This document shows, one piece after another, positions 1 through 6,725 of a stretch of 6,759 nt of DNA; the stretch's first letter is position 1, and each line of letters starts with the position of its first letter. The notes under the pieces are model-generated. The model worked only from the letters and a program-made list of their open reading frames with translations. It was not told where the DNA came from and made no database searches. Origin of the DNA: a bacterium (GTDB lineage Bacteria > AUK180); the NCBI GenBank assembly GCA_030622125.1, contig JAUXGM010000121.1, positions 1-6,759 of the forward strand. Reading direction: 5' to 3'. A program made the position numbers and the translations under genes.

Positions 1-39
1 CCGCTTGTTTTCGGAGTTTGTATTTGTTTTTTTTTCATT

Positions 40-67
40 GTCAATTATCAATTGTCCATTGTCAATT
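40..67. repeat. Tandem heptamer array, four units of RTCMATT
   Basis: Four contiguous 7-nt units run GTCAATT, ATCAATT, GTCCATT, GTCAATT. A related TTTCATT at 33-39 may be a fifth. The 11-mer CATTGTCAATT therefore occurs at 36-46 and again at 57-67. The array lies in intergenic DNA upstream of the operon promoter. Function is unknown. Confidence 0.8.
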
Positions 68-119
68 GTTTTCGGTAATGTCCCTCTTTTTATGGGGGAC
101 GGAATTTAATATTGTTTTC

Positions 120-143
120 CTTATTCCCTTATTGCCTTATTGC
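120..143. repeat. Tandem octamer array, three units of CTTATTNN
   Basis: Three contiguous 8-nt units run CTTATTCC, CTTATTGC, CTTATTGC. The same octamer with a free last two bases appears four times at 6067-6098. It also appears on the opposite strand at 5055-5078, where the third unit is degraded. The array ends 13 nt before the predicted -35 box of the first gene. Confidence 0.8.
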
Positions 144-156
144 CTTCTTCTTGACC

Positions 157-3163: not shown

Positions 3164-5069
3164 TCCCTTCTTTCTTGGATTTTTTGCCTCAATAATCCAG
3201 ATAATATTACTGCGTTCTCTTTTAACTTACTTTGATCCCAACGAACTTCTCATCTCTCTTTTTTTCGCTTTTTGGTTTCTTGGTTTTTTGTTGCTTTTTA
3301 ATCTTGGTAGTCACAAATCATTTAAAAAAGGGAATTTTTATATAGAGCTCTTTTTCTTTTTTCTACTCGTAATTAAATTTTTACAGCTGATTAAAGTAGG
3401 ATCGTTAGTTTTTTTCTTTCTTCTTATAGCAATAGAAGGCGGGATATCGGGTATATTTTATTATTCCCTTACAAAAGGGAAATCATCAATTTTAAACTCT
3501 GTTTACAGAAAAGATGCACTTGGTGATATGACAGGAGCTTTATTTATCTATTTTTTATTTCTTCTCCGACTTTCAGATATAATTATCTATCTCATTCTTT
3601 TTTTTGTATTTGTTATTCTGAAAAGAAAAATTCTTCCAACATTGATCCTTATTTTAATTTTTATTACAATTTTTTTTGTTGACAATAGTTATTTAACATC
3701 AATTTTTGACGGTTATGGTTACAATGTAAAAGAAGGCAAAACGGGGAGATTTGTCTTATTTCAAAGAGATAATACAAAGATATTAACAAAAAATGGAAAG
3801 TCGCTTTGGGTAAATGAGAATTATGAAGATAGTGAAAGAGAACTCTTTCTACCTGTTGCTTTAAAAAAAGAAAAAACAGAGAGCTATTTATACAACGGGG
3901 AATTAACTCCGTATCAAAGAAAAATACTTAAAGAAAACTCTATTAAATTTAATGAGGTAGGAGAAGATTTTTACTTTAAAGATACCGATCAAATAAATAA
4001 GAATATTATACCGTTATTAAAAAAAGGAAAAGAAAAATATGATGTAATAAATATCGGACATATCAATCCGACATTGCTGAGCAATATTGCACTTTTGACA
4101 TATAACAACGTAACACTTTATAAAAATGGATTAAAAAATGATGGAATTGTTATTTTTTCGATCTATGGTGAAGAAAATTATCAAGCAAGTGACCTTAAAA
4201 ATATCCTAAATTCCATTGTGAAAACATTTCATCAAGAATTTTCCGATTTTTTTATCATTCCGGGATTAAATTATATTTTCATTTTCTCAAACAATAGTAT
4301 TCAGAAAAACCTAATGCAGGTAAGCAATAATTTAAAAAGATATAAAACGAATTATATCGATGAATATGAAGCATTTACACTTAAACGAGGAATAGAATTT
4401 ACAAACAATTTTGGCTATAAAAACGGAGCAATTATTGAAAAAGGACATACTGCATTGCTCAATACAAGTCTAAAATTTTATAAGGGGTTTAGGGCAAATT
4501 GGATCTTTTATATTTTTTTTGGACTTTTAATTGCCTTTATTCTTTTATTTTATCATTTTTCTAAGGGGCAAACCGTTGCGAACAGTGGAACGGAGAATAT
4601 GATAATAGAATTGACTTTAATATTTCTTTACCAGATAAATTTCGGCACTCTGTATATTGACAGTGCACTTTTTATCTTTGCTGCAATGTCCGGTCTTTTT
4701 CTCGGGAATTATATTGAAGAAAAAAAGAGGGTTTCATTAAATCTTCTCAATATCGGAAAGATCACTTTTTTGATCTTAATTCTTTTAATATATATTTATG
4801 ATGTAAAGATCAAGGTGATCTATTTTTCTATGTTATTTTTATTTTCACTGGTTTCCGGAAGCGAGTTTTTTTCGTCTTCCACATTAAAAAAGGAGATCCG
4901 ATATACGATATTCGGAGATTATGCGGGTTCATTTTTTGCGGCATTATTGACCGGTGTCTTTCTCATTCCAATACTCGGCGTCGTTTATAGTTTATTGGTA
5001 TTAGTTCTTTTACGGTTACTTATTCTTTGTTTTCGGGGACACTTCAAAAGGAAGTTGATAAGAAAATAA
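3114..5069 (+). CDS. Polytopic membrane protein with degenerate spermidine-synthase-like domain
   Basis: A 651-residue protein built as in 'fused MFS/spermidine synthase' membrane proteins. About six or seven hydrophobic segments (18-192) precede a soluble domain (about 200-455), and six or seven more follow (462-640). Family landmarks: PNELLISLFFAFWFLG (42-57), VYRKDALGDMTGAL (130-143), EKYDVINIGHINP (307-319), GIVIFSIYGEENY (344-356), FFIIPGLNYIFIFSN (379-393), LYQINFGTLY (505-514) and GDYAGSFFAALLTG with IPILG near the end. The glycine-rich SAM loop is reduced to SYLYNGELTP (257-266). The following acidic-residue/DPR/GDA stretch is largely missing, and the catalytic aspartate expected after YDVI is replaced. 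Aminopropyl or methyl transfer is therefore unlikely; a transport, sensing or scaffold role is guesswork. ATG 3114 lies 50 nt inside the upstream gene; GTG 3132 is an alternative. The last codons lie in the 5055-5124 repeat. Confidence 0.85.
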   Translation: MGNVRIVEKRSQVDLNNPFFLGFFASIIQIILLRSLLTYFDPNELLISLFFAFWFLGFLLLFNLGSHKSFKKGNFYIELFFFFLLVIKFLQLIKVGSLVFFFLLIAIEGGISGIFYYSLTKGKSSILNSVYRKDALGDMTGALFIYFLFLLRLSDIIIYLILFFVFVILKRKILPTLILILIFITIFFVDNSYLTSIFDGYGYNVKEGKTGRFVLFQRDNTKILTKNGKSLWVNENYEDSERELFLPVALKKEKTESYLYNGELTPYQRKILKENSIKFNEVGEDFYFKDTDQINKNIIPLLKKGKEKYDVINIGHINPTLLSNIALLTYNNVTLYKNGLKNDGIVIFSIYGEENYQASDLKNILNSIVKTFHQEFSDFFIIPGLNYIFIFSNNSIQKNLMQVSNNLKRYKTNYIDEYEAFTLKRGIEFTNNFGYKNGAIIEKGHTALLNTSLKFYKGFRANWIFYIFFGLLIAFILLFYHFSKGQTVANSGTENMIIELTLIFLYQINFGTLYIDSALFIFAAMSGLFLGNYIEEKKRVSLNLLNIGKITFLILILLIYIYDVKIKVIYFSMLFLFSLVSGSEFFSSSTLKKEIRYTIFGDYAGSFFAALLTGVFLIPILGVVYSLLVLVLLRLLILCFRGHFKRKLIRK

Positions 5070-5124
5070 GGGAATAAGTAGAACAATATAAAACTCCAAA
5101 AAACCATAAAAGAGGGACATTACC
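5055..5124 (+). repeat. ~70-nt repeat, inverted partner of 74-143
   Basis: This stretch is the reverse complement of 74-143 with a one-base indel, one divergent block and a few mismatches. On the minus strand it ends in CTTATT octamers (5071-5078 and 5063-5070, with a degraded third). It includes the stop codon (5067-5069) and the last codons of the membrane-protein gene, so the repeat may have contributed the C-terminal tail. It runs directly into the hairpin element that begins at 5114. Confidence 0.7.
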
Positions 5125-5159
5125 TCAACTTTCTGATTTTTAAAGTTGAGGTGTGTCCC
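5114..5159. repeat. Left-end hairpin of the element
   Basis: CCTCAACTTT (5123-5132) and AAAGTTGAGG (5142-5151) form a perfect 10-bp stem around a 9-nt loop. Outside it, GGGACA (5114-5119) pairs with TGTCCC (5154-5159), with a small internal bulge. No T-run follows on either strand, so it is not a typical intrinsic terminator, although it may still affect the 3' ends of the convergent transcripts. Confidence 0.8.
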
Positions 5160-5165
5160 GGACTC
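5152..5165 (+). repeat. 14-nt direct repeat, copy 1
   Basis: TGTGTCCCGGACTC, identical to 5289-5302. Each copy sits at or just after the right arm of a GGGACA hairpin, which suggests that the element has two related ends or is itself a partial duplication. Confidence 0.75.
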
Positions 5166-5253
5166 TTCCTTAGATAACGATAAACCACCCGAAAACAATA
5201 TAGCCAAAGGAAATAGAATCAAAGGTTCAAAAGAAAATGCACCGAAAACAGGC

Positions 5254-5283
5254 GGGACATACGTTGCTTGCATCGTGTGTCCC
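5254..5283. repeat. Right-end hairpin of the element
   Basis: GGGACATACG (5254-5263) pairs with CGTGTGTCCC (5274-5283) through ten positions, one of them a G-T wobble. A small inner TGC/GCA pairing lies in the loop. It shares the GGGACA/TGTCCC outer arms with the hairpin at 5114-5159. Confidence 0.75.
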
Positions 5284-5288
5284 AAGAC

Positions 5289-5302
5289 TGTGTCCCGGAC
5301 TC
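5289..5302 (+). repeat. 14-nt direct repeat, copy 2
   Basis: TGTGTCCCGGACTC, an exact second copy of 5152-5165. It ends one base before the stop codon of the minus-strand lipoprotein gene (5304-5306), so it may mark the element's right boundary. Confidence 0.75.
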
Positions 5303-5303
5303 A

Positions 5304-6059
5304 TTAAAATTTGTGCCTTATAAAGTTGATTCCTGTGGGTTCACCTTTTATTCCATTATCAAATTTTTCAAAATCATTTAAAGAATTATAGGTTCGAGTA
5401 ATCGATTTTTCCGGATCGGCATTGTAATTATTTTTAACCATATTAATATCTGTGGTTGAAGCAGCATTTTTCTGCCATTCTTCAGGATCTTCACCAAAAT
5501 AATTCTCATCAATACCGGTACTCCATTGATCATAATCTTCATTACTAATCCTTATCTCCTGATTGGTAACATCAAAAAAAACTTTCGCAGTTGTTTCATA
5601 TTCTTCTATCAAACTATCAATAATCAAAGTTCCGGTATTATTATGAACAGGGTCATAAGCAGCGATCTTTATGCTAAAAGGTCCTGTTTCAAATAAATTT
5701 TCATCTGTGACAACTTGACTATCCCAATAGGGAGGTCCTTTTATTTTGACGGTGTAACCTTTATTGGTGGTTATTTCATTAGAAATACTTCCGTTTATTG
5801 TTCCCAAAGAACCGCTTGTCTCCAAAATCTTATAGATAACTTTTCCGGATTGATCATCGTTTTCAAGATCAGAGGTATTATAATGAAAAGAAAGAATTTT
5901 ACCTAAATAATTTAAACTTATATATTGTAGGGACAGCTCTATTTCACTATTATTTCCATCGGGAATGTCCGGTAAAGTAGTTTTTTTACATCCCACAAAA
6001 ATAATAATTACTAAAATGTAAATAATAATTGATATAACTAATGTTTTTCTGCTTTTCAC
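5304..6059 (-). CDS. Predicted lipoprotein of unknown function
   Basis: A 251-residue predicted lipoprotein. The N-terminus is basic (MKSRK), followed by a hydrophobic run (about 7-22) and a lipobox-like FVGC with cysteine 24 as the lipidation site, then KK. The rest is a secreted-type sequence without other cysteines, with many strand-forming stretches (for example VIYKILETSG, TVKIKGPPYW, FSIKIAAYDP) and an acidic, asparagine-rich C-terminal third. No family is recognised; an Ig-like or beta-sandwich fold is possible. The start is GTG at 6057-6059, supported by AGGA five bases upstream. The stop codon abuts the repetitive element at 5111-5302, so C-terminal truncation by its insertion cannot be excluded. 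It lies downstream of another lipoprotein gene on the same strand, across a repeat-filled 144-nt gap. Confidence 0.8.
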   Translation of the reverse strand: MKSRKTLVISIIIYILVIIIFVGCKKTTLPDIPDGNNSEIELSLQYISLNYLGKILSFHYNTSDLENDDQSGKVIYKILETSGSLGTINGSISNEITTNKGYTVKIKGPPYWDSQVVTDENLFETGPFSIKIAAYDPVHNNTGTLIIDSLIEEYETTAKVFFDVTNQEIRISNEDYDQWSTGIDENYFGEDPEEWQKNAASTTDINMVKNNYNADPEKSITRTYNSLNDFEKFDNGIKGEPTGINFIRHKF

Positions 6060-6064
6060 TTCTT

Positions 6065-6068
6065 TCCT
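6065..6068 (-). promoter_or_regulatory. Ribosome binding site deciding the GTG start at 6059
   Basis: On the minus strand, AGGA is followed by five bases and then the GTG. It supports a GTG start for the lipoprotein and overlaps the edge of the CTTATTNN octamer array. Confidence 0.6.
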
Positions 6069-6098
6069 TATTAACTTATTTTCTTATTCTCTTATTAC
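6067..6098. repeat. Tandem octamer array, four units of CTTATTNN
   Basis: Four contiguous units run CTTATTAA, CTTATTTT, CTTATTCT, CTTATTAC. The first six bases are invariant and the last two free. The same unit occurs at 120-143 and, on the other strand, at 5055-5078. On the minus-strand transcript it would lie just upstream of the start codon at 6059. Confidence 0.85.
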
Positions 6099-6104
6099 CC
6101 ATTC

Positions 6105-6132
6105 TTCATTGTTCATTATTCATTCTTCATTT
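6105..6132. repeat. Tandem heptamer array, four units of TTCATTN
   Basis: Four contiguous units run TTCATTG, TTCATTA, TTCATTC, TTCATTT. Six bases are invariant, and the seventh takes each of the four bases once. It lies in the 144-nt gap between the two lipoprotein genes. Confidence 0.85.
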
Positions 6133-6139
6133 GTATTCC

Positions 6140-6171
6140 AACTCTCAACTCTCAATTCTCAACTCTCAACT
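6140..6171. repeat. Tandem heptamer array, about 4.6 units of AACTCTC
   Basis: Units run AACTCTC, AACTCTC, AATTCTC, AACTCTC and a partial AACT. It is the most regular of the four arrays in this gap and lies seven bases beyond the TTCATTN array. Confidence 0.85.
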
Positions 6172-6179
6172 ATTTACTG

Positions 6180-6207
6180 CCTCCAACCTCTAACCTCTAT
6201 CCTCTAT
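6180..6207. repeat. Tandem heptamer array, four units of CCTCYAW
   Basis: Units run CCTCCAA, CCTCTAA, CCTCTAT, CCTCTAT. The last unit contains the stop codon (6204-6206) of the minus-strand lipoprotein gene, so this array begins exactly at that gene's 3' end. Confidence 0.8.
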
Positions 6208-6725
6208 TTTGTCGGTTTATCTCCCCAAACAAATGTGGCATACGCATCGGCAGTGATATCATTTCCAGAATAGTCATGACAGATAAAATGAAAGTGATAG
6301 ATAAATCCTCCGCCGCCGGTAAAATCACAGTAGGCTTGTAAAGCAGGCCACCCAACGACAAAATCGCTCCATGTCACTGTTACGGTACTATTTGTTGGTA
6401 TGAAATAAGTATCCCTATTGGTGGTATCTGGTGGTCCGACTACCGGATTTCCATCATCATCTTCCGGAGTGATCGTATATTTATCGATAAATATTCCTTT
6501 CGGGGCATCGGATACCTGGTCACCGTCATAGTCACATTTTAATGTTACAGAAGCTACAACAGGTATTGTCGATGCATTAACAAAATACATATCAATATGT
6601 GCATTTGTAGCGTAAAGATCAAGAGACGAACTATCGTCTTCATTTTTACATCCGCCAAGCAGCAATCCGATAACTCCAATAAGTGCAATGAAAATAACAA
6701 AGTAGAATTTGTTAATTCTTTTCAT
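6204..6725 (-). CDS. Predicted lipoprotein of unknown function with an acidic DYDGD loop
   Basis: A 173-residue predicted lipoprotein. It has a basic start (MKRINK), a hydrophobic segment (8-22) and a textbook lipobox LLGGC with cysteine 26, followed by an acidic, serine-rich linker (NEDDSSS) that would hold the domain away from the membrane. The mature part is strand-rich, with CDYDGDQVSD at 64-73, an acidic loop reminiscent of calcium-binding D-x-D-G-D loops. Cysteines 64, 133 and 149 are the other cysteines; two could pair as a disulfide. A glycine-rich FTGGGG then leads into FIYHFHFICHDYSG. I do not recognise a named family; a beta-sandwich envelope protein is the best guess. The ATG at 6723-6725 has a perfect AGGAGG seven bases upstream. 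The stop codon lies inside a heptamer array. Confidence 0.85.
   Translation of the reverse strand: MKRINKFYFVIFIALIGVIGLLLGGCKNEDDSSSLDLYATNAHIDMYFVNASTIPVVASVTLKCDYDGDQVSDAPKGIFIDKYTITPEDDDGNPVVGPPDTTNRDTYFIPTNSTVTVTWSDFVVGWPALQAYCDFTGGGGFIYHFHFICHDYSGNDITADAYATFVWGDKPTK

Follow-up and report, generated by a model that had tools for sequence, protein, structure and literature searches.

The window analysed here, 6,759 nt in length, is an entire contig (G000:C164) of a draft genome of 2.08 Mb in 192 contigs. Two lipoprotein-like genes on its minus strand, neither of which gave a Pfam match, are separated by a gap of 144 nt (Table 1), and further genes encode a radical SAM protein, a PSP1-domain protein and a membrane protein, the last of which has no relatives in viral contigs. 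TRF recovered all four tandem arrays that a sequence-only reading had described in this gap, and they cover 123 of its 144 nt, so that the earlier description of the gap as nearly all array is confirmed. Array 4 is the first word met going inward from the right gene edge, and the stop codon TAG of the upstream lipoprotein gene (6204-6206, minus strand) lies inside its last CCTCTA unit. On the other side array 1 continues into AAGGA, a Shine-Dalgarno-like sequence ahead of the GTG start at 6059. The spacer is thus array nearly from gene to gene. First-order Markov shuffles of the gap (n = 3000) yielded one array in 23 cases and two arrays in none, which bears out the claim that its regularity exceeds chance.

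Table 1. Genes, tandem arrays and dispersed repeats at the locus (window coordinates; a dot marks features given without strand).
Feature	Position	Strand	Description	Basis
Lipoprotein-like gene, upstream	6204..6725	-	173 aa	ORF list and sequence
Lipoprotein-like gene, downstream	5304..6059	-	251 aa, GTG start	ORF list
Array 1	6067..6097	-	CTTATTNN on the plus strand, AATAAGNN word on the minus strand; period 8, 3.9 units	TRF and sequence
Array 2	6100..6131	-	TTCATTN on the plus strand, AATGAAN word on the minus strand; period 7, 4.6 units, free 7th base	TRF
Array 3	6139..6171	-	AACTCTC on the plus strand, GAGAGTT word on the minus strand; period 7, 4.7 units	TRF
Array 4	6180..6206	-	CCTCYAW on the plus strand, TTAGAGG-type word on the minus strand; period 7, 3.9 units	TRF
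Dispersed composite repeat containing arrays	6059..6192	.		Extent from BLAST
ATTGTCA/ATTGTCC array	37..69	-	Pyrimidine-rich on the plus strand, near the start of the gene at 202	TRF
CCTTATTN octamer array	119..150	-	Pyrimidine-rich on the plus strand	TRF
Convergent spacer	5058..5302	.	Other dispersed repeats, including GGGACA...TGTCCC palindromes	BLAST against the genome's other contigs

Variation within the arrays is unevenly placed. Mismatches concentrate on one phase of the unit (sum of squares 328; in 2000 random trials the mean was 229.5 and the maximum 270), and among the 666 AATGAAN units found over the class the free base carries 1.95 bits and every other position at most 0.73. The corresponding values for the free base are 1.88 bits in AGTGAAN and 1.66 bits in AATAAGGN; in AGAGGTT and AAGTACG one or two positions vary, and in AGAGTTG, AAGTGTG and similar words the division between core and free base is less sharp. 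The conserved core with free terminal bases noted earlier holds for TTCATTN and CTTATTNN but not for CCTCYAW, whose free positions are internal, or for AACTCTC, which varies little; as a general feature it stands for most of the words checked, which spare a core and leave one or two positions free, with some words less sharply divided. Some words were defined from the pattern in the window, so that the split between core and free base is by itself no proof of selection. The selected spacing of 7-8 nt that had been proposed is possible.

Although the four successive arrays are present as described, they are not four independent local events. A search of the genome with the gap sequence returned 44 other matches, the best of which are 92% identical over about 113 nt (C160:84-203) and 95% identical over 94 nt (C28:13083-13176); each of the two follows the stop codon of an unrelated gene, at distances of 17 nt (L038) and 5 nt (L031), and its polarity is that seen in the window. 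The stretch occupied by array 3 is common to many other spacers, and the linkers between arrays are shared as well. Since the four-array composite as such recurs, the gap has to be regarded as containing one copy of a dispersed composite. Each of the three intergenic regions in the window has matches on other contigs of the genome, and the coding parts have none. The convergent spacer on the left of the downstream lipoprotein gene contains GGGACA...TGTCCC palindromes (5108-5160 and 5250-5281) that recur in many other spacers. Many contigs of this genome (C15, C28, C50, C87, C120, C160 and C164) end in or near array composites, which therefore probably broke the assembly, and their true number would be higher.

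This mobility bears on the earlier suggestion of a dedicated process adding short units. Addition de novo does not agree with arrays that travel with non-repeat linkers as composites from other spacers, and of the conceivable machinery a reverse transcriptase was not found in six of the seven genomes of the class and Ku in none of the seven, the latter absence having also led us to reject Ku end joining. In its most specific form such a process would resemble telomerase, with a short RNA template from which purine-rich units are added where a break exposes 3' ends; the facing purine-rich 3' strands, the length of the unit and its degenerate base would all fit. However, RVT_1 was detected in one of the seven genomes, and words that move with long linkers and in composites are impossible for a 7-nt template. 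Telomerase-like synthesis appears to us extremely unlikely, and the missing reverse transcriptase largely refutes it, barring an unrecognised enzyme.

As had been anticipated, arrays are present in other spacers and in relatives. Among intergenic arrays of at least three copies at the loci of three genomes (G000, G003 and G004), 47 have period 7, 12 have period 8 and two have another period, and shuffled sets gave 0-0.45 such arrays per set. With at least three units of 7 nt, beyond chance and mostly intergenic, they belong to the intergenic heptanucleotide tandem repeats (LSSR/STRR). Arrays of period 7 or 8 built from a class-specific word stock also occur in the spacers of related genera. 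All seven genomes of the class contain TTCATTNTTCATTNTTCATT but not its mirror image (0/7); outside the class the word occurs in 9 of 273 random genomes, against 6 of 273 for the mirror image; two further words are outside the class no commoner than their own mirrors. We rejected a word stock common to phyla: four-unit TTCATTN arrays do occur in many phyla, but the three-unit pattern is hardly more frequent than its mirror (9 against 6 among the 273 genomes); the wide list of phyla for TTCATTN is an effect of collection size. The exact words are class-specific, and heptamer arrays as such are general. Arrays of another period also exist, with 9-mers of the AATCCGTGT / ACGGATTTG type at L029:10413-10438, L033:3089-3115 and L038:1476-1501, and about 40 copies of a repeat of some 200-250 nt are interspersed in G001 (matches at L060:15245-15606). 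In a gene encoding an S1-like RNA-binding protein of 731 aa (L032:1916-4111, G000:C50) array words lie in frame in the C-terminal tail (MDNGQLTMDNG, TIDNGQLTIDN, VNSEE), so that the words extend a coding sequence, too.

The most informative features, both of them missed by the sequence-only reading, are that the arrays are polar and that the spacers bearing them turn over fast. We classed arrays by their top strand as purine-rich (R) or pyrimidine-rich (Y) and placed them by our own gene calls. Read from left to right, spacers with at least two arrays in four genomes of the class were RY in 27 cases, R only in 14, Y only in 15 and YR in none, with no additional switches between R and Y (log10 P of -13.3 under random orientation); the sister species G001 and G004 contribute most of these RY spacers, several loci were picked for holding arrays, and the genomes are drafts. 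The RY order is found in every arrangement of the flanking genes (-- 11, -+ 6, ++ 5, +- 5), whereas R- or Y-rich windows outside arrays, taken from array-free spacers as a control, gave RY 28 and YR 33. The purine-rich strand thus runs nearly always 5' to 3' from the gene edge toward the middle of the spacer. For array clusters scored without gene calls, the RY:YR ratio was 37:1 in the class, where one RYR and one YRY cluster were found in addition, 58:8 in other phyla and 16:4 in viral contigs, against 1:4 for clusters of other periods, and with gene-based calls the replicate genomes gave RY 3 and YR 0 (G005) and, as the one exception, RY 0 and YR 1 (G002). Polarity is evident 3' of genes in other phyla but absent from their divergent spacers, whereas in the class divergent spacers are polar too. 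Within 50 nt of starts on the 5' side it was found in 15 of 27 arrays; longest-ORF gene calling would if anything mask Y-rich arrays before starts, a bias that opposes the polarity result.

In a test that is independent of purine content, we compared the 150-nt edges of spacers pairwise. Shared sequence was found in 584 inward/inward against 215 inward/outward pairs in G001 and in 217 against 39 in G004, and the excess holds at 3'-3', 3'-5' and 5'-5' edges in these two genomes and at 3'-3' edges only in G003. Array-free spacers gave 44:42 in G001 and 39:12 in G004. Within a spacer, the left half does not recur inverted in the right (P 0.87), and each half therefore appears to have been drawn from the same inward pool independently of the other. 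With a single strand-defined polarity relative to gene edges and with convergent pairs, the arrays can be classified as convergent polar heptamers.

Several simple roles were considered for sequences of this kind and rejected. A purine loading of transcripts does not agree with divergent spacers of the class being polar as well and non-array windows not; quadruplexes are not expected from AATGAAN, GAGAGTT, TTAGAGG and AATAAGG, which lack runs of three or more G; the provision of stop codons in all frames has too weak a signal (49 of 97 sense units with a stop, 31 of 97 antisense units); and a bidirectional hairpin terminator does not fit weakly structured centres and Y-words that in the class are C-rich rather than T-runs. 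A more specific function at the RNA level would be that of an insulator, in which the C-rich, G-poor strand acts as a putative Rho-loading (rut-like) sequence met by transcripts arriving from either side. Rho is encoded in all seven genomes of the class, G exceeds C on the inward strand of 102 arrays at 3' edges against 20 with the reverse, leaving C in excess of G on the opposite strand, and the R-then-Y order places the Y-rich strand late for any transcript that crosses the spacer. But divergent spacers of the class are polar too, and there a Y-rich leader would hit the gene's own transcript; the sense RNA of the gap in the window is R-rich only; and the centres between arrays fold weakly above background (z below -2 in 8 of 22, against 13 of 65). 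We regard an insulator as quite improbable.

Alternatively, the arrays might be terminal binding sites of non-autonomous mobile elements (MITE- or REPIN-like) that are moved by RAYT/Y1 transposases and nested in each other. Indeed, Y1_Tnp genes are present in all seven genomes of the class in 3-13 copies, a RAYT-like gene is newly present in one sister species, the composites disperse as units, and in other phyla adjacent convergent arrays share the same word in 32 of 69 pairs (15.1 expected). In the class, however, this is the case in 1 of 39 pairs (4.2 expected), and spacer halves that are not inverted copies also led us to reject paired terminal repeats like those of MITEs or transposon ends. 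Insertion should moreover give both orientations, and the shared sequence is instead inward/inward, and spacers with R only or Y only are common. A palindromic REP core was rejected as well, the units being non-palindromic 7/8-mers and the centres weakly folded. Mobile elements as the origin of the arrays are on balance unlikely.

Turnover was assessed between the sister species G001 and G004, which are about 95% identical in syntenic genes and offer 22 comparable spacers. The 15 array-free spacers have a median identity of 97%, none of them falling below 60%, whereas six of the seven array-bearing spacers are less than 60% identical over the longer sequence, i.e. they have been replaced. In some slots non-homologous array sets lie between the same two genes, and an orthologous array counts 13.4 units in one of the sisters but 5.4 in the other, with changes at the free base. 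In the slot of L266 one sister carries a RAYT/Y1-transposase-like gene (columns 15566-16583 of the G001/G004 alignment) and the other 48 nt, a difference that is due to recent insertion or loss. An insertion of 273 nt resembling a MITE, with the inverted ends GTGTACTGTTCCATAAATACCAT ... ATGGTATTTATGGAACAGTACAC, is found at about 38.2 kb in G004:C1 (alignment C1/L251, columns 1578-1880) and is absent from G001.

These data bear on polymerase slippage, in which heptamers would grow by stutter alone and the 7 nt would reflect the polymerase footprint, as proposed by Mrazek. The dominance of period 7 and the copy-number difference in the orthologous array are in its favour, but it gives no account of shared words with their linkers, of the spared core, of the strict polarity or of the replacement of whole spacers. 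The earlier judgement that slippage alone is inadequate is therefore upheld on dispersal, core, polarity and turnover: as the sole cause it is disfavoured and in our view very unlikely, and as a source of copy-number change it is likely. Copy number may still be altered by slippage or by unequal exchange.

The data demonstrate that the arrays are dispersed, that their words combine a fixed core with a free base, that they are polar at the 5' as well as the 3' ends of genes, that the two halves of a spacer are independent of each other, and that spacers with arrays are quickly replaced. Our best guess at the cause, which we put forward tentatively from sequence comparison, is a polar copying of 3' ends between spacers during break repair. 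Arrays would be drawn from a pool of short words, tandem 7- or 8-mers of 3-5 units with their linkers, and copied from spacer to spacer. A break in a spacer would yield two facing 3' ends, each of which could anneal, by way of its tandem units, with a word of a different spacer and be extended inward by copying, in a form of synthesis-dependent strand annealing with template switching, before the extended ends are joined by microhomology. Tandem units would aid annealing in any register and might alter copy number as well, and because inward words template inward extension only, the polarity would maintain itself. In the window all four words would have been placed from the right-hand, stop-codon edge. 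Purine richness and fixed core could come from a 3'-tail preference of the annealing or recombination machinery, possibly through Chi-like recognition. When blocks that touch gene edges are excluded, 100 shared blocks begin inside arrays and 54 end there, and this modest asymmetry, in which the blocks are not independent of each other, is of the kind predicted by inward copying. Against copying stand the weak polarity near starts and its absence from the divergent spacers of other phyla, some polarity in the array-free spacers of G004 and the exception in G002. Copying alone also leaves the purine preference and the length of 7-8 nt unexplained, and the RAYT-type transposases that are present could move parts of the array DNA.

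The part assigned to the machinery might also be the whole, if the words were candidate Chi-like sites, i.e. directional recombination signals of the RecBCD/AddAB type that flank breakable spacers. The length of Chi sites is 5-8 nt, most are rich in purines, and their activity depends on how they are oriented to the break; each species is known for a single Chi sequence, which is not known to occur in tandem. Gene edges would then present purine-rich 7-8-mers in the active orientation, degradation would halt before the gene, and repair would replace the spacer only. The words resemble known Chi sites in size and purine content, their orientation fits both edges regardless of gene direction, and the fixed core with a free base would fit as well, as would array spacers that turn over between intact genes. 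Yet a dozen words are used here, and in tandem, and AATGAAN and similar words are not G-rich. Chi-like signalling as the full explanation seems improbable, but together with the Rho-related insulator it has to be taken seriously as a competitor of the copying model.

If the copying of 3' ends is taken further, the arrays may be seen as self-propagating polar DNA words in bacterial spacers, with tandem 7-8-mers as register-free annealing sites on broken 3' ends that are copied inward. We consider this broader proposal possible but rather doubtful. If true, such words would rewrite whole intergenic regions between sister species and leave the genes intact, and they may explain the dominance of heptamers among the simple repeats of bacteria, for which there is so far no accepted cause. 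Polarity and wholesale replacement of spacers suggest a directional process at the DNA level and not simple polymerase stutter, and a process of this kind bears on the rewiring of promoters and terminators. A polarity that several phyla share, that many unrelated A-rich words obey and that is found at either end of genes appears to be new, as does the turnover, with few subscription journals covered and a prior report possible.

Among known systems, the LSSR/STRR of cyanobacteria (Mrazek 2007, as quoted in PMC4679880, with the idea of a 7-nt polymerase footprint) are likewise intergenic heptanucleotide tandem arrays, but the spacers described here differ in combining several words with a fixed polarity, a free base and dispersed composites. 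Beggiatoaceae carry short intergenic heptamer sets, too, in the form of TAACTGA direct repeats mostly just upstream of start codons, and indels in 7-nt steps and mixed heptamers have been described in cyanobacteria (MacGregor 2015; PMC4679880); the Beggiatoaceae set, unlike ours, consists of one word. TAACTGA and TTCATTN arrays occur together within five 8-kb loci of other phyla, in Parabeggiatoa and Okeania (L090, L104, L116, L154 and L183). In Geobacter metallireducens, paired 7/8-mer "global regulator binding sites", read as IHF/HU sites, comprise 3-5 tandem units of 7-8 nt, one of them degenerate (GTTGCTYN), in multicopy pairs on opposite strands at variable distance (PMC2700814). Tandem units of this length on opposite strands with a degenerate base are common to both systems, whereas the Geobacter pairs use the same word and the left and right words here mostly differ. 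REP/REPIN sequences with RAYT (PMC3116915) are also dispersed intergenic repeats, and Y1 transposases are encoded in all seven genomes of our class, but those elements are palindromic, whereas the arrays here are unstructured and their convergent halves are not inverted copies.

Another close parallel is formed by the G-rich heptamers GGGAATC of Xanthomonas and GGGGA(T/C)T of Nostoc (Rehm et al. 2015; PMC4692102). These are intergenic, favour four copies and lie no more than 50 bp from a gene, downstream of it on the coding and upstream of it on the non-coding strand; two genomes of Xanthomonas contain 70 and 75 convergent pairs, and their length varies strongly among relatives. The arrays described here share with them the intergenic 7-nt units, the polarity and the convergent pairs, but in place of a single G-rich word per genome there are many A-rich words without G-tracts, arranged as composites. 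The polarity of G-rich heptamers has been reported once and was ascribed to quadruplexes, which Rehm et al. suspected; that A-rich words without G-tracts have the same polarity argues against this reading.
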